This document shows, piece after piece, positions 5,836-63,473 of a DNA stretch of 64,000 bases. The DNA is from Geminocystis sp. NIES-3709. GTDB lineage: Bacteria > Cyanobacteriota > Cyanobacteriia > Cyanobacteriales > Cyanobacteriaceae. The translations under genes and the position numbers were made by a program. How positions within the stretch are numbered: the first letter of the stretch is position 1; every line of letters starts with the position of its first letter. A model generated the notes under the pieces. The model made no database searches. It saw only the letters and a list, made by a program, of their open reading frames with translations, and was not told the origin of the DNA. The stretch lies in assembly GCF_001548115.1 (NCBI RefSeq), contig NZ_AP014821.1:744001-808000 (forward strand), in the 5' to 3' direction.

Positions 5836-6453
5836 CTATTGCATTCGATCGATGGTACGATATTGAATAGCTTCTGCTAAATGATTAGTTTTTAAATGCT
5901 CATCCCCTGCTAAATCAGCGATAGTGCGTGAGACTTTTAAAATACGATCCATTGCACGAGCAGATAAACCTAACTTGCGTATTGCACCCTCTAATAGATT
6001 GCGACTGGTTTCGTCTAAGTCACAAAACTTTCGTAAATGACGGGATTGCATATGTGCATTACAACTGATTCTATCTCCTTTGAAACGATTATGAGCTATT
6101 TCTCTCGCTTTTTTGACTCTTTCCCTCACTATTTCCGAGGTTTCTCCTGTTTTTTGGGTAGTCATTTCTTCTGGTTTAAGCCGACTTACTACTACTTGTA
6201 AGTCAATTCGATCGAGAAGAGGCCCTGATAATTTTGCCCAATATTGTTCTCGTTGCCGTGGCGAACAAGTACAAGGTTGGATAGAATCCCCAAAATACCC
6301 GCATGGGCATGGATTGGTACTTGCGATCAAGGTAAATTGAGCAGGAAAAAGTACTGATTGTCTAGCACGAGAGATGGTAATATGTCCGTCCTCTAGGGGT
6401 TGACGCAAAAATTCTAGTACACTACGTTTGAATTCTGTGAGTTCGTCAAGAAA
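5836..6453 (-). pseudogene. comM: comM 3' part (YifB/Mg-chelatase-like ATPase), cut by the element
   Basis: Encodes the C-terminal ~205 residues of ComM/YifB, an AAA+ branch-migration helicase used in natural transformation. Visible: LFLDELTEFKRSVLEFLRQP (Walker B D-E and following helix), ISRARQSVLFPAQF, STNPCPCGYFGD, SPRQREQYWAKLSGPLLDRID (arginine-finger region), and the C-terminal LSARAMDRILKVSRTIADLA. Upstream of LFLDE the frame reads into unrelated element DNA, beginning at the AGAAA core 6449-6453. The missing N-terminal part is at 62554-63473. Without excision this fragment has no comM promoter or start. Confidence 0.95.
6449..6453. other. Left attachment core (attL-type junction)
   Basis: AGAAA on the + strand, flanked on the left by comM sequence (GAGTTCGTCA) and on the right by element DNA (CAAATAGACAAT). 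The element-side arm AATAGACAAT is an inverted match to ATTGT...CTATT on the other end, so the reconstructed circle junction has arms ATTGT-n4-CTATT and AATAGACAAT around the core, as expected of a serine-recombinase attP. Confidence 0.85.
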
Positions 6454-6478
6454 CAAATAGACAATAAACATATAAAAA

Positions 6479-6820
6479 TTATACACATTCATTAAGAATC
6501 TTTTGAGCGACTTTAAGTTTCTCTTCTTTAGGGAGATTAATAAGATAAGGATAAGCTTCTTTTGCATTATCAGGTAATTCTTTCAAGAAATTATTATTCA
6601 AATTTTTATCTTTAATTATTGAGAACAATTCATTAAGTTCAATTCTCATATAATTAGAGATTTTCTCTAAATTTTGTGGTGTAGGAATATTTTTTTTATG
6701 TATCCAAGTTCTCAACGCATAATAAGAAGACCCTAACTCTTCCGCAAATTGACGAAGACTTTTATCACCTTTTAAATCCATTAATAATTTAGATAATCGA
6801 TCAAGTTCTTCATCATTCAT
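6479..6820 (-). CDS. XRE-type helix-turn-helix regulator
   Basis: 113 aa. Residues 15-60 read LKGDKSLRQFAEELGSSYYA then LRTWIHKKNIPTPQNLEKIS, the five-helix Cro/C1 fold (S-R-FAEELG-S-xx-LR-W-xx-K-IPTP-NLEKI). The C-terminal half is acidic with PDNAKEAYPYLINLPKEEKL, unlike classic repressors, and may be an oligomerisation or sensor segment. It is the first gene inside the left end of the element, transcribed outward toward comM, and diverges from the rep-like operon. Position suggests control of element maintenance or excision; that is inference. Confidence 0.75.
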   Translation of the reverse strand: MNDEELDRLSKLLMDLKGDKSLRQFAEELGSSYYALRTWIHKKNIPTPQNLEKISNYMRIELNELFSIIKDKNLNNNFLKELPDNAKEAYPYLINLPKEEKLKVAQKILNECV

Positions 6821-52894: not shown

Positions 52895-53110
52895 CTAAGA
52901 ATAAAAATGAGGAAGAATGAGATAAAAGAAAGCCTTTTTTCGAGGAATAATACAATAGGGCAATTTTAGAGAAAGAAGAAGGCGAGAAAGTTGCTTATCT
53001 CTACCAGTCTTATCCGATTCCCAGAAACGAATAATAATTTTTTGATTTTGTTCGGGATAATAGCCGAATTGTAAATCAGGGTTGTTTTTTAAAAATTGAT
53101 TAAGTGTCAT
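52895..53110 (-). CDS. Small unknown protein, 71 aa
   Basis: TLNQFLKNNPDLQFGYYPEQ NQKIIIRFW, then RDKQLSRLLLSLKLPYCIIP and a basic end. It lies 40 bp after the 53150 gene with an intercistronic hairpin (53129-53143) between. No family. Probably a real accessory gene from codon use and spacing. Confidence 0.45.
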   Translation of the reverse strand: MTLNQFLKNNPDLQFGYYPEQNQKIIIRFWESDKTGRDKQLSRLLLSLKLPYCIIPRKKAFFYLILPHFYS

Positions 53111-53128
53111 AGTTTTTCTGTTGTGGGT

Positions 53129-53143
53129 GGGGGCGTTGCCCCC
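53129..53143. other. Intercistronic hairpin GGGGGC-n3-GCCCCC
   Basis: Perfect 6-bp G/C stem between the 53150 gene and the next gene on the minus strand, ending 19 bp before the 53110 start. Similar G4/C4 hairpins occur at 54850, 55949 and 57598. Confidence 0.6.
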
Positions 53144-53149
53144 TATAAA

Positions 53150-53386
53150 TTAAGAAATCAAACGAATATTTTGAGCTTCAAACTTTTCTTGAGCCTTATT
53201 TTCTGCTATTTCATTCTCGATTCCGCTATGTAAATCAATCATTCTCGAATAAATGGAGGAAAATTCATCAGGCGTTTTTTTAAAATTATTAATTGCAATC
53301 ATCATAAATTCGATCGCCGTTTCAAGTTTTACCAACGAATCTTCTAAATTACAGCCTTCTTTTAAAAGCCTTTCATAATAATACAT
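53150..53386 (-). CDS. Small helical protein, 78 aa
   Basis: YYYERLLKEGCNLEDSLVKL ETAIEFM and FSSIYSRMIDLHSGIENEIA. All-helical, no family recognised. Its promoter faces the operator-like inverted repeat at 53433-53450, shared with the divergent DnaJ-domain gene, and its leader contains TCAACTAAA like those of neighbouring genes. Confidence 0.5.
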   Translation of the reverse strand: MYYYERLLKEGCNLEDSLVKLETAIEFMMIAINNFKKTPDEFSSIYSRMIDLHSGIENEIAENKAQEKFEAQNIRLIS

Positions 53387-53432
53387 ATTTGTTTTTCCTT
53401 ATTTTAGTTGATACATATATTATAACTAATTT

Positions 53433-53450
53433 TCTTTAATTAATCAAAGA
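53433..53450. promoter_or_regulatory. Operator-like inverted repeat TCTTTAATTAATCAAAGA
   Basis: 18-bp near-perfect inverted repeat between the divergent 53150 and 53523 genes. Its right end is 29 bp before an extended -10 (TGTTATAAT, 53476-53484). The site at 56671-56688 has the same form and the same 29-bp spacing, so a common regulator is likely. Confidence 0.6.
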
Positions 53451-53475
53451 TTTTATAACATTATTCAAAGATTTT

Positions 53476-53484
53476 TGTTATAAT
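53476..53484 (+). promoter_or_regulatory. Extended -10 promoter TGTTATAAT for the DnaJ-domain gene
   Basis: TG-n-TATAAT preceded by TTATTCAAAGA 7 bp upstream, a half-copy of the operator motif. Followed by a leader AAATTCAACTAAA that is repeated upstream of the 56827 gene. Sigma-70 type promoter, assigned by motif. Confidence 0.5.
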
Positions 53485-53522
53485 AGAGATATAAAAATTC
53501 AACTAAACCTGAAAAAAACATT

Positions 53523-54029
53523 ATGATACATTTGTATTTCGATAAGTGTGAAACAGTCGCACAAGCGAAGAAATTATACAAAGAACTTGCTTTAAAACAT
53601 CACCCTGATCTAGGTGGTAATACCGCAACCATGCAAGAGATTAATCGCCAGTATGAAGAAATTTTAAGAAGATTAGACGGCGAGATAACCACCGACAGCG
53701 AAGGAAAAACCCATACTTATAAATATGATTACGAAACCGAGTCAAAGTTAATGAAACTCATTGATCAATTATTAACCCTTCAAATGAGCAACGTTGATAT
53801 TTATTTAGTGGGATTATGGGTGTGGATTGATGGAGAAACCAAGCCCTACAAAGAAGAATTAAAAACTCTTAATTGTAAATGGCATAACACCCGTAAATGT
53901 TGGTATTTTGCTAGTACCCCTAGCCGATACCGTAAATCTTCAAACAAAGGGATCGAAGACATCGCAGAAACTTATGGTGCAACCAAGATCCGCAACAAAG
54001 CAACAACCCCATACAAAGTAATTGCTTAG
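53523..54029 (+). CDS. DnaJ-domain protein with a unique C-terminus
   Basis: 168 aa. Residues 1-55 are a J-domain: TVAQAKKLYKELALKHHPDL with the H-P-D tripeptide, and GGNTATMQEINRQYEEILRR. The C-terminal ~75 residues (VGLWVWIDGETKPYKEELKT, WHNTRKCWYFA, YRKSSNKGIEDIAETYGA) recall a DNA-polymerase-associated or DUF family seen in phage proteins. Likely recruits the host Hsp70 to an element process, typical of phages and plasmids in cyanobacteria. Confidence 0.75.
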   Translation: MIHLYFDKCETVAQAKKLYKELALKHHPDLGGNTATMQEINRQYEEILRRLDGEITTDSEGKTHTYKYDYETESKLMKLIDQLLTLQMSNVDIYLVGLWVWIDGETKPYKEELKTLNCKWHNTRKCWYFASTPSRYRKSSNKGIEDIAETYGATKIRNKATTPYKVIA

Positions 54030-54056
54030 TAACTTTTAAACAATGGAGCAAAGCAA

Positions 54057-54275
54057 ATGTACTTATATGAATCATGGTATGTAGGCGATCGATTAATTCT
54101 CGATATGAGAGAGGAAGAAAATACAGAATACTTTGACTATCTAAACGAGTTAGATGATTGGAATTTTGGCATAAATCCCGACAATCTCGATTATGTAGCC
54201 CCCGATATAGTCGAAGAAAATACTGTTATCTGGAATGACAAATACAAAAGATCACCAAACCAGCCTGATTATTAA
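54057..54275 (+). CDS. Small acidic protein, 72 aa
   Basis: YLYESWYVGDRLILDMREEE, then EYFDYLNELDDWNFGINPDN. Very acidic with many Tyr/Trp, as in phage-type accessory proteins; could mimic DNA. Gene begins 27 bp after the DnaJ-domain gene. No family. Confidence 0.45.
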   Translation: MYLYESWYVGDRLILDMREEENTEYFDYLNELDDWNFGINPDNLDYVAPDIVEENTVIWNDKYKRSPNQPDY

Positions 54276-54298
54276 TTTTTGAATCATTGTCTAACCCC

Positions 54299-54838
54299 AT
54301 GAAGACATTAAAAGCATGGGGAAACATTCAACTAAACATAAAAAACAATATGAGACACATTTTATTCAACTTTTGTAATGTCTGCAATGTTACATGGCTT
54401 GATCGAAAAGATATTAAGATGATCACAATTAAATCGAATGATCATTGTTTAGTTACTTTAAAAACGGGAGAAACCTTAAAAGTTACAGCAAATGAAGTTA
54501 AGGAAAGCCTAGAACAAACAAGAAAAAAACGATCGAGCAATATTGAAATTATCGACAATCCTGATTACACTTACACCGCTCGAAATCCTATCAAAGAGAC
54601 TCAATATACCTTAATAACAAAAGATTCTTATATTTACTGCACCTGCCCCGATTATAACAATCAATCGATCGCCCTTAAATCTGATCAAGTCTGCTGTAAA
54701 CATATTTGGTCATTGTTGGAATACTTAGGGTTTAACAGTTTACTCGAATACAAAGAATATATAGAAACGGAACAAATCGAAGCCGAATATCAAAAATACC
54801 TTGATCGAGAATTTTATGACAGCTACGGAAACTATTAA
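54299..54838 (+). CDS. SWIM zinc-finger protein
   Basis: About 179 aa from ATG 54299. The zinc finger is at ~110-145: YIYCTCPDYNNQ, then QVCCKHIWSLLEYLGF, i.e. C-x-C-x(n)-C-x-H of SWIM domains, which bind DNA or proteins. The N-terminal part has FNFCNVCNVTWLD (another C-x-x-C) and a KTGETLKVTANEV segment. A start at ATG 54350 is also possible. A second, smaller SWIM-like protein follows at 54876. Confidence 0.6.
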   Translation: MKTLKAWGNIQLNIKNNMRHILFNFCNVCNVTWLDRKDIKMITIKSNDHCLVTLKTGETLKVTANEVKESLEQTRKKRSSNIEIIDNPDYTYTARNPIKETQYTLITKDSYIYCTCPDYNNQSIALKSDQVCCKHIWSLLEYLGFNSLLEYKEYIETEQIEAEYQKYLDREFYDSYGNY

Positions 54839-54849
54839 TTATTCTTCTT

Positions 54850-54866
54850 AGGGGATATTTTCCCCT
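54850..54866. other. Intercistronic hairpin AGGGGA-n5-TCCCCT
   Basis: 6-bp stem 9 bp before the 54876 start and 11 bp after the preceding stop. No T-tract, so it is more likely a translational or processing element than a terminator. Confidence 0.55.
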
Positions 54867-54875
54867 GACTAACTT

Positions 54876-55283
54876 ATGAAAATATCAAATCAAATCATAT
54901 CGCAACACTTCACCCCGTATCTTATCCATAGAGCTTTATACTACTTAGAGCGCAATCATTATAATTATCGTTACCAAGATCTTAAAAGTGAACTATGGTT
55001 TACGGGATTGTGGACTAATTCATCAGGTATTATTAGTTATCAAGATTATGCTAAATTTCTCTTACTTTATACCCAAGCCAAATCTTATCAACTATCTTAT
55101 AAAAAAGTGGGAGAAAACATATATATAGTAGAAGGAAATCATTTACCTTATTATACTGTTACTCCGAACTCCTGCAATTGTCCTTTATTTTTGTTAAGGA
55201 AGAAACGATCTAAAGAATTACCTCAATTTTTCAAATATTTTCCTATTACTTGTCACCACCATCAATTAATTAAATCACTGTAA
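54876..55283 (+). CDS. Second SWIM-like zinc-finger protein
   Basis: 135 aa. YYTVTPNSCNCPLFLLRKKR and FPITCHHHQLIKSL contain C-x-C-x(n)-C-x-H, the SWIM ligand set (the second pair is C-H-H). N-terminal region: FTPYLIHRALYYLERNHYNY. Adjacent to the 54299 SWIM gene, suggesting duplication or functional pair. The stop codon TAA lies within the variant palindrome at 55279. Confidence 0.55.
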   Translation: MKISNQIISQHFTPYLIHRALYYLERNHYNYRYQDLKSELWFTGLWTNSSGIISYQDYAKFLLLYTQAKSYQLSYKKVGENIYIVEGNHLPYYTVTPNSCNCPLFLLRKKRSKELPQFFKYFPITCHHHQLIKSL

Positions 55284-55292
55284 ATAATTACA
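55279..55292. repeat. Palindrome variant TGTAAATAATTACA
   Basis: One base different from the 14-mer and no longer a perfect palindrome at the centre; flanked by C and G. Supplies the stop codon of the 54876 gene (CTG TAA ATA). Confidence 0.7.
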
Positions 55293-55405
55293 GCCCACTA
55301 ATGGGGTTTTCTTTTAAAACCATCTTTGACTCATTTTACGTTTCAACAATAATCTTTTTCTTCGTTCGAGTAGGACGGGATGGAGTAAAAATTTAGGATT
55401 TTCTC

Positions 55406-55419
55406 TGTAAATATTGACA
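55406..55419. repeat. Palindrome variant TGTAAATATTGACA
   Basis: One mismatch from the 14-mer, in the spacer between the 54876 and 55463 genes. Confidence 0.55.
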
Positions 55420-55462
55420 TCCATTAGTGCCTTACATTTCCTATTCCCTGATTTAATATCAA

Positions 55463-55825
55463 TTACTTTGTTAACTTGCTTGGTTTCCATAATTTTAATA
55501 AATATCCTTCTAAGGCTTGGGCAATAAATTCACTACAAGACAACCCACTATCTTGGAGAGCTTCCAGAAAAAGAGGTTCTAAATCTTGGTAAAAGTAAAC
55601 CCCCATTGCTTTTTTCATACGAGGACGATCACGAGGAACAACCCAACCATCCTCTCTTTTTGCCTCATGAATATACGTTTTTCTTAAAGGTGGAGTAGAG
55701 ACAGCTTTATCTAAATCCCATTGTCTATCTAACCTAGAATAAACAGTTTGCAAAGATATATTATTAGCTATAGCAATTTCTCGATACTCCTCTGGTATAA
55801 CTTTACTGGTTTTACGTTTCATCAT
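55463..55825 (-). CDS. Putative DNA-binding plasmid-type protein
   Basis: 120 aa. N-terminal helix-turn-helix-like segment EEYREIAIANNISLQTVYSR LDRQWDLDKAV and basic centre HEAKREDGWVVPRDRPRMKK AMGVYF, then DSGLSCSEFIAQALEGYLLK. The C-terminal part looks like a ribbon-helix-helix dimer helix pair. No named family. Upstream on the minus strand lies TTTGTTATAAT, similar to the extended -10 promoters of the neighbouring genes. Confidence 0.5.
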   Translation of the reverse strand: MMKRKTSKVIPEEYREIAIANNISLQTVYSRLDRQWDLDKAVSTPPLRKTYIHEAKREDGWVVPRDRPRMKKAMGVYFYQDLEPLFLEALQDSGLSCSEFIAQALEGYLLKLWKPSKLTK

Positions 55826-55948
55826 TCTATTTTCTTTTTATTTCAGATAAATTATAACAAATATCAAAGATTTTTCTGTTGTTTAATATGATATTATACC
55901 AATAATATTACAAAAAATGTTTTTTTTGTTTTAGTTGAATTTGATGAA

Positions 55949-55964
55949 GGGGGATAATTCCCCC
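55949..55964 (+). terminator. Hairpin GGGGGA-n4-TCCCCC with T-tract
   Basis: Perfect stem GGGGGATAATTCCCCC followed by G and TTTTTTT on the + strand, 6 bp beyond the end of the minus-strand 55971 gene. By sequence it works best as a terminator of + strand transcription. Its style matches the intercistronic hairpins at 53129, 54850 and 57598. Confidence 0.5.
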
Positions 55965-55970
55965 GTTTTT

Positions 55971-56615
55971 TTAATCCTCTAAATCTTGGGTAAAGTATTC
56001 AGAAGCACCACAGACAATAAGAACCGCACCTACTAAAGCCCTTTTTTGTGCCATTTTACAGAGTGTATTAATAGAATTGTAATTAAACGTTTCGTTTCCC
56101 ATATCTAATGTAGAAGACAAAATATTTTCGCCACAACCACCTTTATTTTTATTACACCAGTGATAACCATCTTTATACTTAGATTTCATCAAGGTATCTT
56201 CTTTACCACAACTAGAACAAATTAATAATGCTCTAGCAAATTTACTTTCTTTAGATGATGCAATACCATCACACATTCCCACTAATTCACCAAAACGATA
56301 AAGATTACAACGATAATGATAATGAAATAAGTTTTCTTTATAATCTACAATTCTATCAATTATTTCAAAGGTAGGACGAAGTTTAAATAATCTGCATAAT
56401 TTCTCCGCCCCAGCTTTAAATAAAACAGGCTTATTACCACAATTGGGAATTAAACCATAGTCAATTTTTTCTTGTAAATTACGATTAACATATTCACGAA
56501 TTGCAGAAAAGATAAATTCAGCCTGTTCAATATCCTCATCTTCTAATAAATTAAATTTTACAGGCACATTTTTTACACTATCACTAAATATCTGAATCTC
56601 TGATTTATTTTCCAT
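55971..56615 (-). CDS. Rad52/Sak-like phage recombination protein with zinc cysteines
   Basis: 214 aa. QEKIDYGLIPNCGNKPVLFK AGAEKLCRLF is the diagnostic D-Y-G-x-I-P-G-x-x-K-P-x-L-x-K-x-G-A-E-K-L start of a widespread phage family. Toward the end come MAQKRALVGAVLIVCGASEY FTQDLED, as in Sak3/Rad52-like single-strand annealing proteins. In between ICSSCGKEDTL and WCNKNKGGCG could bind zinc, a less usual addition. Probably anneals ssDNA for recombination. Divergent from the 56827 operon with the operator between. Confidence 0.6.
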   Translation of the reverse strand: MENKSEIQIFSDSVKNVPVKFNLLEDEDIEQAEFIFSAIREYVNRNLQEKIDYGLIPNCGNKPVLFKAGAEKLCRLFKLRPTFEIIDRIVDYKENLFHYHYRCNLYRFGELVGMCDGIASSKESKFARALLICSSCGKEDTLMKSKYKDGYHWCNKNKGGCGENILSSTLDMGNETFNYNSINTLCKMAQKRALVGAVLIVCGASEYFTQDLED

Positions 56616-56670
56616 AAACTAAATTTTTTCTAACTTATTTTTTTATTATATCATATAAATGATAAAATAT

Positions 56671-56688
56671 TCTTTGAATAATTAAAGA
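56671..56688. promoter_or_regulatory. Operator-like inverted repeat TCTTTGAATAATTAAAGA
   Basis: 18-bp inverted repeat with the same form as 53433-53450. It lies 29 bp before TATAAT (56717-56722) of the forward promoter, and 21 bp from a TATAAT reading leftward (56645-56650), between the divergent Rad52-like gene and the 56827/Gp157 operon. Confidence 0.6.
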
Positions 56689-56713
56689 AAATATAGTATT
56701 AATTAAAGAATTA

Positions 56714-56722
56714 TGCTATAAT
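56714..56722 (+). promoter_or_regulatory. Extended -10 promoter TGCTATAAT
   Basis: TG-n-TATAAT preceded by TTAATTAAAGA, a half operator. Drives the 56827-58891 gene set. A leader with AAATTCAACTAAAA follows, shared with 53495. Confidence 0.5.
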
Positions 56723-56826
56723 GTGGGTATGACAGAGGATAAAATCAAGAGAGAGAAAAAAGCCTTGATAATAAACTAAAGTCATATAAAATTCAACTAA
56801 AAACTAGAAAAAACAATGATAGCAAA

Positions 56827-57048
56827 ATGATAAAAAGTAAATGGTTACAACACAGGCTAAAAAGAGAAAAACAGCAAAGATTACAAAAATTTCTCAATGG
56901 TTTTAAACACAATTACCTACTAAAAATTGTTAATTACTATAACCTTAATTGTGCAGATAGCAGACAGTTACGGTGTATCTACAAATCAATTAAACAAGCA
57001 AAACTAAACTATCAAGATATTTGGAGAGCATTAATCAATGGAAACTAA
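56827..57048 (+). CDS. Small basic protein, 73 aa
   Basis: KSKWLQHRLKREKQQRLQKF, LNGFKHNYLLKIVNYYNLNC, then QLRCIYKSIKQAKLNYQDIW. Strongly basic and helical; plausibly nucleic-acid binding. Overlaps the Gp157 gene by 11 bp. Its C-terminal half resembles the tail of the 57632 protein (N-C-x-D-x-R-x-V/L-x-x-x-I-K-x-I), suggesting a shared small domain. Confidence 0.5.
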   Translation: MIKSKWLQHRLKREKQQRLQKFLNGFKHNYLLKIVNYYNLNCADSRQLRCIYKSIKQAKLNYQDIWRALINGN

Positions 57049-57583
57049 ATCAACTTACAAACTCTATGAATTGAGCGATCGAATTGAAGAATTAGAATCA
57101 ATTATCGATAGTTTTGAGGAAGTACAACTACCAGAGGAAGCGAGAAAAATATATGAAGAATTATTGAAAGATGCTGATCAAACTAAAGCTGATTTTACAG
57201 ACAAAGTTGATAGTATTCTATCATTAATTCAATCTCGTAAAAGATGGTTAGAAGTAAGAAAAGCAGAAGTTGAAAGACTGCAAAAACTAATTAAAAAAGA
57301 TGAGAATACTATTAATTTTTTAACAGAGTATCTATTAAAACATCTTGAGAAATTAGAGATTACTAAACTTCGTACTAATAATTTTAATCTCTCAGTCAAA
57401 ACAGCATCGATCGCTCCCTTTAAATTATTGATAGAAGATGCTAAAAAATATCCTCAACAATACCAAAGAGTAACAGTAGAAGTAGATAAAAAAGCACTGA
57501 AAGAAGCGGTAAAAAATGGAGATACTGAAGCTCTTAAATATGCAGAGTTCGGGGAAAAATCTACCTACTTATCGATTAAATAA
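57038..57583 (+). CDS. Siphovirus Gp157-family protein
   Basis: 181 aa. LYELSDRIEELESIIDSFEE, ADFTDKVDSILSLIQSRKRW, LEVRKAEVERLQKLIKKDEN, LTEYLLKHLEKLEITKLRTN FNLSVKTA, KKYPQQYQRVTVEVDKKALK EA and GEKSTYLSIK follow the Gp157 layout from end to end: coiled coil then a beta strand with the D-K-x-x-L-K-E-A motif. Family members protect hosts from phage in Streptococcus or act in ssDNA recombination modules. Next to Rad52-like and exonuclease genes here. Confidence 0.85.
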   Translation: METKSTYKLYELSDRIEELESIIDSFEEVQLPEEARKIYEELLKDADQTKADFTDKVDSILSLIQSRKRWLEVRKAEVERLQKLIKKDENTINFLTEYLLKHLEKLEITKLRTNNFNLSVKTASIAPFKLLIEDAKKYPQQYQRVTVEVDKKALKEAVKNGDTEALKYAEFGEKSTYLSIK

Positions 57584-57597
57584 TTATAAATAATTAT

Positions 57598-57614
57598 AAG
57601 GGGTTTGACCCCTT
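57598..57614. other. Intercistronic hairpin AAGGGG-n5-CCCCTT
   Basis: Perfect 6-bp stem between the Gp157 stop (57583) and the ASCH start (57632), ending 17 bp before the start and 8 bp before its GGAGG. One of four similar hairpins in this module. Confidence 0.6.
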
Positions 57615-57631
57615 AAACTTTGGAGGAAATG

Positions 57632-58237
57632 ATGAAAGTAATTACAATACATCAACCTTGGGCATGGGCAATTGCCGAAGGATTTAAAACAGTAGAAAAC
57701 AGAACATGGCAAACTAATTACAGAGGATTATTAGCTATCCATGCAGGAAAATCAAAAAAATCTTTAAAATATTTAGATACGGTAAAAGAATTAACTGGTG
57801 TTGAAAATCCTAAATTAAGATTCGGTGAAATTATCGCAGTAGTTAATTTGACAAATATTACTATTTTTACTCATACTGAATGGGAAAAATGGGCAGTAAA
57901 AGGACAGTATCACTGGTTATTAAGAAATCCAGTAAAAGTAGAACCAATTAAAATTAATGGACAGATGGGGTTATGGGAATTAAATAACAAATTAATAAGA
58001 ATTAAACAATCCAAACAGTTTGAATTTCTCTCTAAATTTCGGATAGATGAATTAAGATTTATTTTACAAAAATACAATATTGATTGTGAAGATGCGAGAG
58101 TGGTAAATAATGTCATCAAAGCAATTGAATCATCAGGATTAAGTAATGAAGAAATTTGGGAAATGGTAGGGAAATATAGAGGAACTTATCGAAAAAAATT
58201 AAACATTGAGAATTTACCATTATTTAATAAATTTTAG
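57632..58237 (+). CDS. ASCH-domain protein with an extra C-terminal module
   Basis: 201 aa from ATG 57632 (GGAGG 5 bp upstream decides this start over TTG 57620). ASCH fold at residues 1-115: VITIHQPWAWAIAEGFKTVE NRTWQTNYRGLLAIHAG, FGEIIAVVNLTN and GQMGLWEL. ASCH domains resemble PUA and bind RNA. The last ~80 residues (IDELRFILQKYNIDCEDARV, VNNVIKAIESSGLSNEEIWE) are an additional helical module also seen in the 56827 protein. Function unknown; RNA-modifying or coactivator-like binding is possible. Confidence 0.75.
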   Translation: MKVITIHQPWAWAIAEGFKTVENRTWQTNYRGLLAIHAGKSKKSLKYLDTVKELTGVENPKLRFGEIIAVVNLTNITIFTHTEWEKWAVKGQYHWLLRNPVKVEPIKINGQMGLWELNNKLIRIKQSKQFEFLSKFRIDELRFILQKYNIDCEDARVVNNVIKAIESSGLSNEEIWEMVGKYRGTYRKKLNIENLPLFNKF

Positions 58238-58249
58238 AAGGAATTAACG

Positions 58250-58891
58250 ATGGAAAAACTATTAATTTATGACTGTGAAATAATCAGATTAATCCCTAAT
58301 ATTAAAGAACCGATGAACCCCAATTATTCCTACTGTAGCCACTGGTCAGATTTTAATAATATGGGGATTGCGGTAATAGGAACTTGGAGAAATTTTGATT
58401 TAATTACAGTGTTAGATAAAAACTATATTATCCCTTTACCTTGGGGAAAATACGAACCCTTTGTTAATTACAATAACTGTATAAAAAAGGAAGACTTTAG
58501 ACATCCCAGTCCATTCCGTAAATTCTATCAATTATATTGTTTATGCGATCGACTAATCGGATTTAATAGTCTTAATTTTGATGATAAGTTAATGAAAGCT
58601 AATGGATTAATTGTTGATACTGATTTTGATTTATTGGCAGAAATAAGAGAAGCGTCAGGACAACCGAGGCATGAAGTTACTAAAGGTGGTTATAACCTAC
58701 AAAATTTAGCGATAACTAATTTAGGTAAAGGGAAAACAGGAAACGGTGAACTTGCCCCGAAACTATGGCAGGAGGGGAAACATCAGAAAGTAATTAATTA
58801 TTGCTTAAATGATGTTAAGTTATTACGATCGCTCTATTTCAGGTTCATTAATGGATTATTAAGAGATCCTTATTCCCAAAAACTACTGTAA
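58250..58891 (+). CDS. DEDDy-type 3'-5' exonuclease/RNase H-like protein
   Basis: 213 aa. Exo I: LIYDCEIIRL (D-x-E) at residues 5-10. Exo II: DRLIGFNSLNFDDKLMKA (N and D), about 104-120. Exo III: VINYCLNDVKLLRSLYFRF with Y-x(3)-D, about 180-195. That is the DnaQ-like DEDDy set seen in phage-type exonucleases and polymerases' proofreading domains, standing alone. Likely the nuclease partner of the Rad52-like protein. It ends with TAA inside palindrome copy 11 and follows the ASCH gene by 12 bp. Confidence 0.7.
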   Translation: MEKLLIYDCEIIRLIPNIKEPMNPNYSYCSHWSDFNNMGIAVIGTWRNFDLITVLDKNYIIPLPWGKYEPFVNYNNCIKKEDFRHPSPFRKFYQLYCLCDRLIGFNSLNFDDKLMKANGLIVDTDFDLLAEIREASGQPRHEVTKGGYNLQNLAITNLGKGKTGNGELAPKLWQEGKHQKVINYCLNDVKLLRSLYFRFINGLLRDPYSQKLL

Positions 58892-58900
58892 ATATTTACA
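58887..58900. repeat. Palindrome TGTAAATATTTACA, copy 11
   Basis: Exact copy; supplies the stop codon of the exonuclease gene (CTG TAA ATA). Confidence 0.9.
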
Positions 58901-58947
58901 CTCTTAGGGATTGAGACATAGTTTTTTATGGAAACAAACAATTAATG

Positions 58948-58980
58948 TTCGGTGAGAAATGATAGTTTACTCTTACCGAA
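58948..58980. other. 10-bp stem-loop TTCGGTGAGA / TCTTACCGAA
   Basis: Arms 58948-58957 and 58971-58980 pair over 10 bp (one G-U) with a 13-nt loop, 57 bp after the exonuclease stop. Followed by GTTTTCTT. Terminator or the first element of the candidate RNA region. Confidence 0.5.
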
Positions 58981-58983
58981 GTT

Positions 58984-59200
58984 TTCTTATGAGGGCGGTC
59001 GCTGCGCTTCCCTTGCATAGTTCTCCGAAATATGGACTAAAGGTTTTATTTATTGGTGTTACGCACATTGTAATTAAAGATTTTGATGAAGGTATTATCT
59101 TCAGCCCTTTATAGTATAGCTACGGTGTAAAGGGTGCAAGAATTTCTAAGTGTACCGTATTTACTAAGGGCTTCTAACGCTCTAAATTTGTTTGTTTTTT
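58984..59200. ncRNA. Candidate structured RNA, second nested-stem region
   Basis: The 582-bp spacer 58892-59473 has no gene. Outer arms AGCCCTT 59103-59109 and AAGGGCT 59166-59172 enclose TACGGT 59121-59126 with ACCGTA 59154-59159; alternative pairing CCCTTTA 59105-59111 with TAAAGGG 59128-59134 would compete. The sequence GGCGGTC-CT-CTTC-ATAGTTCT-CG at 58984 onward resembles 52634 onward in the first RNA candidate. The rest of the spacer to 59473 is unassigned. Confidence 0.4.
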
Positions 59201-59473
59201 AGATCGATCAAAATTATTTAACTATCAGCAAAAATTACTGATTCGATTTAAGGAAAATTTCTCACTAAGAAGATCTAATTAAATAGGCTACGACTAAGAA
59301 TAGCTAAGCATCATGAGTACATGATTAACATTTTCTACGGCTCGACTTGGTTGGAAGATATTGAATAAATACTTATTTTGTTTTTTTTCTTCCAACAGTC
59401 TCACTCTCGAAAAGTAACACCCTTGACTTACCTACGCTTTTGAGGGCAAAACTTAGATAATACCGAGAAAACA

Positions 59474-59836
59474 ATGAGCAAGTTAATTAAAGAAAGATTA
59501 AATGTACCTTATGCAATGATAGCTGTAATAGCTGATCAATTAGGTGCGATCGAAGTTTATTGGCGAGAAAGCGATCGAAGTTACACAGGGTATGTCGCAG
59601 AGGTTTGGTTTGATAAATTACCTAGTGAATTTAGTTATTTATGGAGTCAAACAGTAAATACAAGCATATTAGTAAGGAAAATAGAGGAGTTAGGGTTCAG
59701 TATATCAATTCCTTGCACCGTGCCAGAAGGAGAAATTAAATTATTTCAAGGTCAAAGAAACAATAAACGATCGAAACTGAAATTGACAGGAGATAGTGAA
59801 TTAATAAAATCCTATTATCCAAAATTAAACCAATAA
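59474..59836 (+). CDS. Unknown element protein, 120 aa
   Basis: KLIKERLNVPYAMIAVIADQ LGAIEVYWRESDRSYTGYVA, then WSQTVNTSILVRKIEELGFS ISIPCTVPEGEIKLFQGQRN. Looks like a small alpha/beta protein with an R-x-x-R basic tail (NNKRSKLKL). No family recognised. Confidence 0.5.
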   Translation: MSKLIKERLNVPYAMIAVIADQLGAIEVYWRESDRSYTGYVAEVWFDKLPSEFSYLWSQTVNTSILVRKIEELGFSISIPCTVPEGEIKLFQGQRNNKRSKLKLTGDSELIKSYYPKLNQ

Positions 59837-59900
59837 ATAAAGTGTCCCAAGCAAGACTTTAAACTGCTTTTTTTTTAATTATCAAAATAGGAGAAATATC

Positions 59901-60143
59901 ATGGAAAACATAGAAATCAGTTACGACCGAATAGTTTATATGAACACAAAATATTCTCGAATTATCAAGTTACTAAAAGAAGTACACGGATTTTATTATC
60001 GAGAATGTCATGTAATTTTACACATTGCTTTATGGAATCCAGTCGTAGATTATGAAGGAATATTAGAGGAATATAAAATGGATAATTGGATCGATTTTAT
60101 CCGATTTAGCAGAACTCTAGGAAGAAAGCAAAGTAGTCAATAA
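59901..60143 (+). CDS. Unknown small protein, 80 aa
   Basis: NIEISYDRIVYMNTKYSRII KLLKEVHGFYYRECHVILHI ALWNPVVDYEGILEEYKMDN. GGAGA 7 bp before the ATG supports translation. No family known. Confidence 0.45.
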   Translation: MENIEISYDRIVYMNTKYSRIIKLLKEVHGFYYRECHVILHIALWNPVVDYEGILEEYKMDNWIDFIRFSRTLGRKQSSQ

Positions 60144-60199
60144 TTAATATTAGTATAGGGTTTCCTCTATATTTTTTTGAAGATAAATGAAAGATTTAC

Positions 60200-60213
60200 T
60201 GTAAATATTTACA
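60200..60213. repeat. Palindrome TGTAAATATTTACA, copy 12
   Basis: Exact copy, the right-most in the element. A decayed half (CTGTAAATATTAATG) at 60478-60491 overlaps the start codon of the adenine-poor gene. Confidence 0.9.
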
Positions 60214-60254
60214 TTTTTTTGCTGTTCTGTTTTTTTGTTGGTGAAATATCATAG

Positions 60255-60475
60255 TTGGTGTCGCTCTGCGCCGCTAGGCACTGGCTCGTTGCACTCGCTC
60301 GAACGGGTGGAGATAATCGACGACAGCTTTTCTAGTATGCCCTCTCTGACAGGGCGACTAGGGTAGATTATATTGTGTCACTACGCGCGCATAAAGTTTT
60401 AGATGATGAATCGATCGTATAGTAACGCGCTTCGTTCCTTTTTATTTATTGCCCTTGCGCCCAAGCACAAAGTTC
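60255..60475. other. GC-richer spacer with hairpin, no gene
   Basis: The 345-bp gap 60144-60488 contains a GC-rich stretch with GCCCT-n7-AGGGC (60339-60355 region) and several GCGC/TACGC motifs (CTCTGCGCCGCTAGG, ACGCGCGC, GCGCTTCG) resembling the two candidate RNA spacers at 52.6 and 59.0 kb. No open frame is supported. Confidence 0.3.
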
Positions 60476-60488
60476 ACTGTAAATATTA

Positions 60489-61046
60489 ATGTCGGGCGAA
60501 AAGAAGCTGTTCTTTCGTCGGTCTTTCGGGGCTGTTTTTCGTGTGGTTTCTTCCTTTCCTTGTTTTGTGTCTGCTTTTCTCGGTTCTTCGGTGGTGGGTT
60601 TTTCTGGGTCGCGCTTGGTTGTGCCGTCCTTTTTGCCTTCGTTGTTGTCTCGTCTTTCTCCCTCTTCGTCGGTTTTTGTTGGCTGTGCTTCGGGGGTTGA
60701 CTCCGTTGTGCGTGGGTCTTGTGCTTCGGTTCGTGTTTTTCGTGTGGTGGGTTCTGGTCGGTCGGCGTTTGTTGCTCGGTCGGTTGCCTTCGTTTCTGCG
60801 GTGTCGGCTTCGGGTGGTGTTCTTTTCTCTTTTCCGTCTGGTGTCTGTCCTTCTGGGGTCGTTCCTGCTCGTTCTTGGCGTTCTGGTTCTTTCCCTTCTG
60901 GTTCGTGGTCTTCCTTGGCTTTGGCTGTGGGGTTGGATATGCCTTGTCTTGTCTGGTTGCCTTCTGGGGTTGTTGCTCCTTCTTGGTTGTGTCCTGTTGG
61001 GTTGTCTTTTGGCGGTGGTCGTTGGTTTGCTTCGTTGCCGTTTTAG
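60489..61046 (+). CDS. Adenine-depleted gene; putative SLOG/DprA-like Rossmann protein
   Basis: 185 aa. GFSGSRLVVPSFLPSLLSRL (first strand, G-S-R-x-x-x-P), FVGCASGVDSVVRG (G-x-G-x-D), VFRVVGSGRSAFVARSVAFV, GGVLFSFPSGVCPSGVVPAR and SGSWSSLALAVGLDMPCLVW resemble the nucleotide-binding SLOG/DprA fold (V-G-C-A-x-G-V-D, then G-x-W-x-S-L-A-L-A). DNA from 60507 to the stop holds only three adenines in ~538 bases, though the region otherwise is AT-rich, so codon choice is extreme. ATG 60489 overlaps a palindrome half. Alternative frames are also open because stop codons need A, so the product rests on the Rossmann-like pattern and the codon bias. Function unproven. Confidence 0.6.
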   Translation: MSGEKKLFFRRSFGAVFRVVSSFPCFVSAFLGSSVVGFSGSRLVVPSFLPSLLSRLSPSSSVFVGCASGVDSVVRGSCASVRVFRVVGSGRSAFVARSVAFVSAVSASGGVLFSFPSGVCPSGVVPARSWRSGSFPSGSWSSLALAVGLDMPCLVWLPSGVVAPSWLCPVGLSFGGGRWFASLPF

Positions 61047-61086: not shown

Positions 61087-62496
61087 TCAAATTTTTAAAA
61101 TAATATCCACAATTTCAGCATCTTTAACAAATATTTTACTAACTAATTTACGGTAAATATCCCGTCTATCTTCTGGTAATAAAGAATCCCAAAAACCGAC
61201 AGAAGAAAAAATAGATTTAAAATATTCCTGATTTTCTTTCATACTTAAATCTTGATTATTTTGATTAAAGTCTAATTCTTTTATTTGTAACTCTAATTTA
61301 TCGATCGCCTCAGTAATAGCAGGGTTTTTCGGTAAAGATTGAAGGGTAAAAATTTGGTGTTGCAGTTCTGTAATTTGAGGATCAATTACTTGAGTCTTAG
61401 TTATAAGAGTTAATGCCGTTAATTCTTCATATTTTTGTTTTAAATAATTAATAAGAGAAGATTCTAAATAATCCATACGAATCATTTTTTTATTAGAACA
61501 ACCTTTAACCAGCCAATTTTTACACTGGTAATAATAATTTTTACCAGGAGTTTTACCACGATTACCAGTAACAGAATAACAGGCACAACGACACTCAGCA
61601 CAGAAAACAAGACCAGAAAGAGGATAAACAGGAGCTGTCGCACCATAACCCCGACGCTCACGATTGAATGATAATATTTGAATAATCTCTTGATACTGAG
61701 ATTCAGTTATAACGGGAGAATGTTGATTGGGGATTATAATAGTATCTTTTTGCTTACTCTTTTTAAGATAACAAAGATGACCACGAAGAACAGGATTAAT
61801 AAGATAATTATGTAAACCAGAAGGAGAGAATCGTAATTGATAACGAACTCGATAACCGTTTTCTTGAGAACTATTAAATAAACCAAAATACTGATTTAAC
61901 TTTCTTACTGTAGCTCTCAGACCCTTTACCTCAAAAAAAGTATTAATAATCCATTGTGCGATCGTATATTTACTATATTCCTTTTGATCATGAATAGTAC
62001 AAAGAAAAGGAGTCATATCAAACTCAAATTTATCGTTAACCTTACAATAACCAAAAGGAGGATTCATGGCTACTTTTCTATCTCTTAAATGATTCCAGCC
62101 GTGTGATACTCTTTCTGATAATCGATCAACCTCCATTTCTGCAAGAGAACCGAGCATATTAATTTGAAATCTACCAACAGCAGAGGAAGTATCTACATGA
62201 TCATCTAATGCAATTAACTTGACATTATTATTTTCGACTATCTTAATAAACTCCTTTAGCTTAACTAAACTACGAGTTAGACGATCGAGTCTAGTACAAA
62301 TAACTTCAGAAATTATATTATTTTCAATATCATTAATTAACTGTAAAAAGTTAAATCTTTTATCCTTACTGCCTGAATCTATATCACAGTAAATATATTC
62401 TGCACCTTGTTCTCTCACTCTCTTTTCTTGTTGTTCTAAAGCGTGTGAGTTTTCAGCTTGTTCTCTTTTGCTTACTCTACAATACCCTACTTTCAT
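61087..62496 (-). CDS. Large serine recombinase (XisF-like), probable integrase
   Basis: 469 aa from ATG 62494-62496. N-terminal resolvase domain with catalytic Ser9 in KVGYCRVSKREQ, then VICTRLDRLTRSLVKLKEFI (R-x-D-R-L-x-R-S) and GRFQINMLGSLAEMEVDRLSER. Recombinase domain ~170-300 (NPPFGYCKV, LRGHLCYLKK) and a zinc ribbon (LVFCAECRCACYSVTG with YYYQCKNWLVKGCSNK), then a coiled coil (ITELQHQIFTLQSLPKNPAI) as in large serine integrases. Closest in design to cyanobacterial XisF, which excises the fdxN element in heterocyst formers. Lies 58 bp inside the right junction, so it almost certainly catalyses integration into comM. Confidence 0.9.
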   Translation of the reverse strand: MKVGYCRVSKREQAENSHALEQQEKRVREQGAEYIYCDIDSGSKDKRFNFLQLINDIENNIISEVICTRLDRLTRSLVKLKEFIKIVENNNVKLIALDDHVDTSSAVGRFQINMLGSLAEMEVDRLSERVSHGWNHLRDRKVAMNPPFGYCKVNDKFEFDMTPFLCTIHDQKEYSKYTIAQWIINTFFEVKGLRATVRKLNQYFGLFNSSQENGYRVRYQLRFSPSGLHNYLINPVLRGHLCYLKKSKQKDTIIIPNQHSPVITESQYQEIIQILSFNRERRGYGATAPVYPLSGLVFCAECRCACYSVTGNRGKTPGKNYYYQCKNWLVKGCSNKKMIRMDYLESSLINYLKQKYEELTALTLITKTQVIDPQITELQHQIFTLQSLPKNPAITEAIDKLELQIKELDFNQNNQDLSMKENQEYFKSIFSSVGFWDSLLPEDRRDIYRKLVSKIFVKDAEIVDIILKI

Positions 62497-62553
62497 GTTA
62501 CCTAGTGGCAAATATTTAAAGTTCTATTATATACTGACATTGTACACCTATTC

Positions 62554-62558
62554 AGAAA
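62554..62558. other. Right attachment core (attR-type junction)
   Basis: AGAAA followed by comM sequence (AAGCACTCC). Element-side flank ATTGTACACCTATTC (62539-62553) has arms ATTGT and CTATT that mirror AATAG and ACAAT at 6456-6465. Replacing the left flank here restores comM. Confidence 0.85.
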
Positions 62559-63473
62559 AAGCACTCCATTATGTGATAGAGATATTTCTCCGGGTTGAGG
62601 AAAAGAGCCACCTCCCACAAGGGCAACACCACTGGCAGAATGGTGAGGACTACGAAAAGGACGCTCTCGTATTAATGAGCCTTTGTTTTTAAGTAATCCT
62701 GCCACTGAATAAATTTGCGATACTTGCAAGGCTTCCTGAAAATTCAAAGGAGGTAAAATTGTGGGTAATCTCCTTGCTAACATGGTTTTTCCAGCCCCTG
62801 GAGGCCCTACAAATATTAAATTATGTCCCCCTGCAGCGGCTATTTCTAAAGCTCTACGTCCGTGATTTTGTCCTTTTACATCTTTTAAATTATAAGCTCG
62901 ATCGAGCAAATTATGACGATCGTTTTCCTCCTGAAAAACAGTCCGTTGAAAGCTAGATGGATTTTGTAAAAATTCTGCAACTTCGTTAATATGATTCAAC
63001 CCATAAACTTTTATTCCTGCTACCACCGCCGCTTCTTGGGCGTTATCTTTTGGCACGATTATCCCACTCAAACCCAATTTTTCTGCCGTAACCGCTATAG
63101 GTAAAACTCCAGCAATCGATCGTAATCCACCATCAAGAGAAACCTCTCCCAAAAACAAATAATCATTTAAGTAAGTCGGATCAATTTGCTCTGAAGCGGC
63201 CAAAATACCAATACTAATAGGCAAATCAAAACTAGGCCCTTGTTTTTTTTAATCGGCGGGAGATAAATTAATCGTTATCTGACGTACTGGAAAAGCAAAA
63301 CCTGAATTTTTTAAGGCCGCTTTTACTCTTTCCCTTGACTCTTGTACTGCGGTATCAGGTAAACCTACCACAATAACTTTAGGCAATCCCCCCGACACAT
63401 CGACCTCAACTCCTACTTTTACCGCATCAATACCGACAATAGTGGCACTCCAAACTCTAGCTAACATAAGCAA
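62554..63473 (-). pseudogene. comM: comM 5' part, with an in-frame stop, cut by the element
   Basis: Encodes ComM residues 1 to about 306: [54 protein letters not shown], then after a stop [20 protein letters not shown], Walker [17 protein letters not shown] near 211-226, [20 protein letters not shown] and the seam SHNGVLFL. An in-frame TAA at 63249-63251 replaces the Leu/Ile codon normally found after SPAD; one base (TTA to TAA) explains it. So besides the insertion, comM has a nonsense codon, unless it is a sequencing error. Translation could restart at ATG 63222-63224. Confidence 0.9.

Follow-up and report, generated by a model that had tools for sequence, protein, structure and literature searches.

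The 64,000-nt stretch of the 4.43-Mb genome of Geminocystis sp. NIES-3709 analyzed here (the window, whose positions serve as coordinates; the genome is labelled G000) contains a mobile element whose recombination module carries an 18-bp inverted repeat in two divergent promoter regions and a short leader sequence in five copies. Our analysis suggests that this module is probably controlled in two layers: the product of the gene at 55463 would act as a repressor at the two operators, and an antisense RNA of about 68 nt would silence the leader that the genes share, both codes being specific to the element and replaced jointly from one element to another. If this is correct, one antisense RNA silences at least four genes through one common leader in a cyanobacterial mobile element, and the related elements provide a natural experiment on the co-evolution of RNA and protein specificities.

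The two-block leader motif, TCAACTAAA-N{2,12}-AAAAACA, occurs five times in the whole genome, compared with three times for the backwards control, and all five copies lie at 53390-56815, that is, within 3.4 kb (see the table). Four of the five stand immediately 5' of start codons, and the fifth has no gene behind it. In three of the sense copies the core is located 13-15 nt 5' of the ATG, with the A-rich second block closer to it. Judged by eye, two sense leaders start at or near the predicted transcription start, and two follow hairpins within longer transcripts. A preliminary description of this region had noted the shared string at two genes and taken it as incidental; its presence at both is confirmed, but it belongs to the five-copy family, of which three further copies had been missed (53402-53411 on the minus strand, 54327-54336 on the plus strand and 55930-55939 on the minus strand).

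The strand opposite the fifth copy reads as an anti-leader followed by the stem-loop GGGGGATAATTCCCCC-GTTTTTTT, which was listed first among the intrinsic terminators of 53000-57200, with six pairs, five of them G-C. The Rad52-like and 55463 genes are both read leftward, so that a terminator facing right in the interval separating them points to transcription in that direction. In the predicted fold of 55905-55975 (z -3.4), a 5' hairpin and the terminator are formed, and a stretch resembling UUUUAGUUGAAUUUGAUGAA stays unpaired. From the anti-leader, the rightward terminator and this fold, we therefore predict that the antisense strand of the fifth copy encodes a small RNA of about 68 nt that is complementary to the other four leaders.

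Features of the proposed control system in the window and in two sibling elements (positions in the window unless a locus is named; duplex energies are predicted, with the antisense RNA).
Feature	Sequence	Position	Strand	Remarks
Operator 1, 18-bp inverted repeat	TCTTTAATTAATCAAAGA	53433-53450		read from the sequence
Half-repeat	ATTCAAAGA	53463-53471	+	21 bp past right arm of operator 1
Extended -10	TGTTATAAT	53476-53484	+	transcription probably starts near 53491
Operator 2, 18-bp inverted repeat	TCTTTGAATAATTAAAGA	56671-56688		read from the sequence
Half-repeat	AATTAAAGA	56701-56709	+	21 bp past operator 2
Extended -10	TGCTATAAT	56714-56722	+	
Half-site and extended -10 ahead of 55463 gene	TCTTTGAT, TGTTATAAT	55851-55869	-	
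Leader ahead of DnaJ-like gene	AAATTCAACTAAA ... AAAAAAACA	53495-53520	+	-23.0 kcal/mol, 0/200 shuffles as low
Leader ahead of divergent 78-aa gene	TCAACTAAAATAAGGAAAAACA	53390-53411	-	-20.7 kcal/mol, 0/200 shuffles
Leader inside operon, ahead of SWIM-type gene		54327-54347	+	just past CCCCATG-N13-CATGGGG hairpin; -25.2 kcal/mol, 0/200 shuffles
Leader ahead of 73-aa/Gp157/ASCH/exonuclease operon		56789-56815	+	-22.2 kcal/mol, 0/200 shuffles
Fifth leader copy, gene-less		55918-55938	-	opposite strand is the anti-leader
Predicted antisense RNA, about 68 nt		about 55904-55972	+	5' hairpin, unpaired anti-leader, terminator; start estimated
Terminator stem-loop	GGGGGATAATTCCCCC-GTTTTTTT	55949-55964	+	
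Possible extended -10 of antisense RNA	TGATATTAT	55889-55897	+	weak, by eye
78-aa gene		53150-53386	-	divergent partner at operator 1
DnaJ-like gene		53523-54029	+	20.3 of 27.8 bits, below Pfam cut-off; PHROG 15863
SWIM-type gene		54350-54838	+	weak SWIM zinc-finger similarity, below cut-off; homologues in G008, G001, G237, G155
55463 gene, candidate repressor, 120 aa		55463-55825	-	N-terminal helix-turn-helix-like and C-terminal ribbon-helix-helix-like part
So-called Rad52-like gene		55971-56615	-	shares operator 2 as divergent partner; same strand as 55463 gene, which lies downstream; PHROG 10048, unknown function
Operon of 73-aa gene, Gp157, ASCH, exonuclease-like		56827-58891	+	exonuclease below cut-off
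G008 operator	CTAATATTTTATTA	L041 1512 and 5207		corresponding two places
G001 operator	TAGCAAGTAAAATATATGCTA	L043 4740 and 7394		corresponding two places
G008 leader	ACCAAAAAAAGAAATAAGG			6 sense copies
G001 leader	ATCAAGTTAAAAGAAATACC			3 sense copies

Homologues of the 55463 product were found in 4 of 149 genomes, the own genome included: G000, G008, G001 and, more distantly, G028, the first three of which are the genomes bearing the module. In both G008 and G001, a different inverted repeat occupies the two corresponding places and a different leader stands at the gene starts, and the interval separating the Rad52-like gene from the 55463 gene holds one extra leader copy, oriented as in G000. 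The leader of G008 has 7 of its 10 genome matches within 4.9 kb, and that of G001 has 4 of 13 within 2.8 kb; these strings are among the commonest repeated 10-mers, with other simple or chance repeats ranking beside or above them. The promoter unit of G000 itself was absent from the 1.5-kb flanks of relatives of the Rad52-like gene, because the siblings use other sequences. Operator and leader have thus changed jointly while the same plan was kept, as expected for immunity-type specificity.

A search with a profile of three proteins detected the 55463 family in 12 genomes of the order (388 searched) and in 3 genomes of the class (388 searched), the own genome counting in both. Thirteen loci of the family were examined, two of them from G226, leaving out the weak matches L077-L080 and G538. 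Leader copies together with one gene-less copy are present in eight of the 13 (G000, G008, G001, G353, G315, G237, G155, and G243), which represent about six independent sequence types, given that G353 and G315 have a common leader and G237 and G155 a common leader and operator. No such system was found at the DnaJ-like viral loci L045 and L046 or at the Rad52-like loci L069 to L072, where L071 gave a chance match, and neither the 55463 product nor the Rad52-like alignment found a match in scans of viral contigs. Among plasmids, the DNA search yielded ASCH fragments and one short match, and the protein searches one weak match on a Nostoc plasmid in a region without the system.

Across the eight systems, the predicted duplexes between leaders and their matched RNAs had mean energies of -22.8 to -33.4 kcal/mol, compared with -6.0 to -17.4 kcal/mol for swaps between unrelated systems; this matrix is partly circular, because each RNA was chosen as the copy without a gene. 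For 20 of the 22 leaders, none of the 200 shuffles reached the duplex energy, and for the remaining two, 3 and 4 of 200 did; the predicted duplexes come as close as a few nt to the AUG. A terminator on the opposite strand accompanies five of the eight gene-less copies (G000, G008, G353, G315, and G155) but none of the 22 sense copies (Fisher p = 0.0004, shared ancestry ignored). The hairpins 5' of the internal sense leaders were also considered as opposite-strand terminators and are ruled out by the same count of 0 in 22. Transitions between leaders and gene-less copies, counted at distinct positions, were G-U-compatible in 19 cases and A-C in 5 (p = 0.007). The anti-leader hairpin is more stable on the antisense strand in G155 (-22.8 versus -17.1) and G237 (-21.4 versus -16.2), and slightly so in G243, G000, and G008; in G353, G315, and G001, it is the sense strand of this region that folds better.

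A detector written once the pattern was known, which requires a repeat to stand at no fewer than two gene starts and to have a further copy without a gene, accompanied by a terminator on the other strand, returned a single match in the 64-kb window, the fifth-copy site. Over 21 other loci it recovered the true G008 copy, together with one wrong G008 match and chance matches in L043 and L071, and it missed smaller systems because of its requirement that two of the sense copies be followed by open frames of 40 aa.

Some of these features would also be expected if the leaders were start-associated translation signals or the RNA target of a protein, as proposed for cluster K mycobacteriophages, with the gene-less copy as a relic and no antisense RNA. 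The spacing of 13-15 nt between core and ATG in three sense copies, the A-rich composition, which is compatible with a role in translation, and the gene-less copies without terminators all fit such a reading. We nevertheless regard it as unlikely, as it leaves unexplained why a gene-less copy has persisted at one and the same location in three elements while its sequence was renewed in each, and why there are opposite-strand terminators, the one in the window lying between two genes of the reverse orientation. The leaders might instead be DNA sites at which a repressor, either the same or another protein of the element, stops the transcribing polymerase, as happens at the stoperators of cluster A mycobacteriophages, in which one motif acts both as promoter operator and, at other places, as stop site. 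The single orientation relative to transcription, the location near gene starts and the element-specific sequences changing jointly would be accounted for in this way. However, the shared motif that defines stoperators is lacking, since operators and leaders of the window differ in sequence; they are likewise unlike in G008 and in G237/G155, with a weak likeness by eye in G001 and G353 only. Stoperators would, moreover, need neither an opposite-strand terminator nor G-U-compatible changes, and we consider this explanation very unlikely. Finally, the copies could have no joint function and owe their number to duplication or gene conversion in each element, which would explain short blocks common to the intergenic regions of an element. 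Yet the blocks held in common extend over about 10-25 nt, the sequence beyond them being unrelated, and this is the case at the gene starts of eight loci that belong to several families, so that there is hardly any chance that this accounts for them.

The other layer of the proposed two-layer control concerns the promoters. At both units, the operator repeat, a half-repeat 21 bp further on and an extended -10 follow each other with the same spacing, and the arms of the repeats contain 1 (TCTTTAATTAATCAAAGA) and 2 (TCTTTGAATAATTAAAGA) mismatches in 9. The preliminary description had reported the two inverted repeats, the TATAAT of the extended -10 starting 29 nt past each repeat, the further half-repeat ending 7 nt ahead of TATAAT (at 53471 and 56709), the location of both sites between divergent genes and the presence of AAATTCAACTAAA at both forward genes, all of which hold on direct reading. 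The units had been called identical; their layout is shared, but they are alike only.

The combination of half-repeat and -10, YAAAGANNNNTGNTATAAT (YAAAGA-N4-TGNTATAAT), has exactly two exact matches in the genome, both at these units. With up to 2 mismatches, its 294 genome matches did not exceed the 323 of the backwards control. For the operator 18-mer, the window has 20 matches when up to 3 mismatches are allowed (13.4 expected), and the genome has 81 when up to 2 are allowed (78 for the control). A wider regulon of the inverted repeat is rejected, as the counts equal those of the controls in both window and genome. Because the 18-mer is at background level, the small regulon proposed earlier shrinks to the two divergent promoter regions, plus perhaps the half-site at the 55463 gene's own promoter (55862-55869). 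Its core, the shared operator-promoter unit, gains support from G008 and G001, in which the element-specific repeat occurs twice at matching places.

Both the 55463 and 6479 products had been suggested as regulators, and our comparison supports the former as the better candidate. Homologues of 55463 travel with the module, and several of them have tandem repeats in their promoters. In L065 and L066, two 18-bp repeats of the TATCA-N8-TGATA type with a 20-bp period are found in the promoters of both the 55463 homologue and the SWIM-type gene; in L064, tandem repeats with a 21-bp period occur at both genes; and in L044, L061, and L068, tandem inverted repeats stand at the homologue's own promoter. 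For at least one of two geometries, the tandem-operator arrangement exceeded shuffles (0 to 11 of 300 reaching it) in 6 of 10 distant loci (L044, L061, L065, L066, L068, and L060). The putative DNA-contacting ribbon residues vary in step with the operators, being MGVYFY in G000, YSTNIP in G008 and SITFAI in G001, and the same, ARFFSL, in G155 and G237. In the window, the operator precedes the upstream gene of the likely operon of 55463, whose own start has the half-site only.

That the operators are bound by the 6479 product, a Cro/C1-type helix-turn-helix protein, is a reading to which we assign a low probability. This protein is the other clear DNA-binding protein of the element (HTH_3 above the cut-off), but its gene lies 47 kb from the operators, the promoter of its G008 counterpart contains, by eye, another palindrome, TTAGTAGCTACTAA, and the tandem repeats of the distant loci accompany the 55463 family.

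The assignment of a ribbon-helix-helix fold to the 55463 product is tentative. The RHH_1 model (E-value up to 0.05) matched 4 of the 13 family members, with a best value of 0.0011. An AlphaFold model of middling confidence (predicted template modelling score 0.37) places helices at residues 83-93 and 97-113, with a predicted local distance difference test score below 50 at 70-74. Arc/CopG-type ribbon-helix-helix repressors are small proteins with tandem inverted repeats in their own promoters; the 55463 product differs from them in having an extra N-terminal helix-turn-helix-like part and in not being recognized by RHH_1.

Several observations weigh against the two-layer control proposed here. 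Leader copies are missing from 5 of the 13 55463-family loci (L044, L061, L063, L067, and L068). The gene-less copies of G237 and G243 have no terminator, and that of G001 has a weak one under the threshold. The promoter of the antisense RNA is weak in the window, where the promoter scan missed it, and it is absent from the scan at L043. The excess of G-U-compatible changes consists almost entirely of G-to-A, the T/C versus C/T part being just 3 to 2, and could stem from Shine-Dalgarno-like Gs in the true leaders. As for the protein, the generic operator geometry (two 5-8-5 repeats with a period of 21) is not significant at the window sites, where 51 of 300 and 73 of 300 shuffles scored as high, and in the other four distant loci neither geometry clearly exceeded the shuffles. 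The window's 55463 protein has no match to the Pfam ribbon-helix-helix model, and a Foldseek search with its predicted fold gave no significant match in the PDB.

Under the two-layer control that we favor, the 55463 product would repress both divergent promoter regions of the element's recombination module by binding the repeats. It would also control itself, because the operon of the Rad52-like and 55463 genes starts at one operator site. The predicted antisense RNA, which would be transcribed rightward between these two genes, would catch leaky mRNA of the four leader-bearing genes or operons by pairing with their start-associated leader. The duplex would form in two blocks, AUUCAACUAAA and the A-rich one beside the AUG, and would thereby cover the ribosome-binding region and block translation. 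As a speculation, read-through mRNA from the Rad52-like and 55463 genes, which would carry the sense leader, could soak up the antisense RNA and thereby act as a switch.

Antisense RNAs with related roles are known from other mobile elements. According to PMC5320573, the C4 RNA of P1/P7 is an antisense RNA that pairs in two blocks, one of which hides a ribosome-binding site. The RNA predicted here would resemble C4 as a small antisense RNA of a mobile element, with predicted two-block pairing to target mRNA over the ribosome-binding site. Processing by RNase P and three stem-loops set C4 apart, whereas here a single-stranded anti-leader, an intrinsic terminator (in G000) and several near-identical targets are predicted. 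The CI RNA of the satellite phage P4 is described in PMC4825925 as pairing with two complementary leader sites and terminating transcription. Pairing with leader sequences and, as is the role of CI, keeping the element's own replication genes off would be common to both. However, CI terminates transcription and arises by processing, whereas at least four separate gene starts and a translational block are proposed here. No Rfam match was obtained in 53000-60600 of the window up to an E-value of 1, C4 included, and in L041, L060, L062, L064, L065, and L066 only a tRNA reached gathering scores. The system would thus work like C4 or CI RNA and yet is no member of a described RNA family. A literature search whose coverage left out most subscription journals found no published account of such an antisense RNA.

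Cluster K mycobacteriophages offer a further comparison. Their start-associated sequence (SAS) is a short asymmetric repeat located within a few bases of the start codons of many non-structural genes (PMC3203893), and its function is stated as unknown in PMC3203893, PMC11373665, and PMC12699233. The window leaders likewise are short non-palindromic repeats just 5' of several start codons. The SAS, GGGATAGGAGCCC, which contains a Shine-Dalgarno core, hardly varies from phage to phage, whereas each element here has its own sequence, and the leaders of the eight systems are unrelated to that consensus. Counting the core alone, the distance to the ATG is 13-15 nt in the window and 3-7 bp in cluster K. 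Four K1 phages have a single opposite-orientation SAS copy without a gene, and the excerpts of PMC3203893 (2011) that report it describe no antisense RNA for SAS.

In phage Anaya, 25000-60800 contains 16 sense SAS copies and one in the opposite orientation (L081 34871, about 59870), which is located in a non-coding stretch of about 385 bp between annotated genes, where it makes up the loop of a strong hairpin; for this reason, the cluster K SAS would be a second example if leaders of this kind were antisense targets more generally. The surroundings of the hairpin matched 177 records, from which 13 phages were aligned. The exact anti-SAS loop is present in five of these (Anaya, Biglebops, Guanica15, Niklas, and CrimD), Ekdilam has a near form, and it is absent in seven; relatives share the conserved stem region, but not all of them have an anti-SAS loop. 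The support from cluster K is therefore mixed. It is a doubtful generalization that start-associated sequences of mobile elements are, as a rule, targets of one cognate antisense RNA, forming an RNA-based immunity code that drifts with the repressor operators. If the control proposed for the cyanobacterial element is correct, it provides a direct test for the mycobacteriophage sequences, which have been without a known function since 2011.

Regarding the genes of the module, the names Gp157 and ASCH given earlier are supported above the Pfam cut-offs, whereas DnaJ and exonuclease fall below them and Rad52-like, for which no Pfam match exceeded the cut-off, is represented by PHROG 10048 only. 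In G008 and G001, an SSB-like gene lies directly behind the leader (L041 5343-5702); it is missing in the window, where a short remnant (56816-56830) precedes the 73-aa gene. Ahead of the leader of this SSB/73-aa operon, a hairpin with the loop AGAGAGAAAAAAGC is kept in three elements (window 56745-56770, L041 5262-5290, and L043 4665-4690 on the minus strand), and its stems, ATCAAG/CTTGAT, CTAAG/CTTAG, and ATTAAG/CTTAAT, show compensatory changes by eye. A conserved TGTCYAANCCC..GACATTAAAAGC..GGG block 5' of internal leaders (window 54288-54325; L041 1863-1900 and 2443-2480) could form a hairpin or, also by eye, an H-type pseudoknot. A protein of strongly biased sequence with the pattern SGSR...GCA(R/S)GVD...SFPS, which we take to be DprA/SLOG-like, is encoded beside the 55463 family in four loci (window 60489-61046, L043 7664-8224, L060 1908-2438, and L065 281-865).

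The element as a whole measures about 56 kb, carries a large serine recombinase (61087-62511) and splits a Mg-chelatase-type gene, presumably comM (5836-6567 and 62502-63224). The G008 element is also inserted within comM, at a different point (L041 12836), and comM looks like a favored insertion target. At the comM junctions, only direct repeats of 8 bp or less were found. All 12 whole-genome copies of the palindrome TGTAAATATTTACA lie within the element (window 9363-60213), and in G008 all 15 copies fall within 64 kb around the element (3999402-4063573); G001 and G011 have two copies apiece, and five other relatives lack the palindrome. Some copies are in coding sequence, where they are read as VNIYT, for example in a ParB-like gene, and the palindrome could be a partition or marking site.

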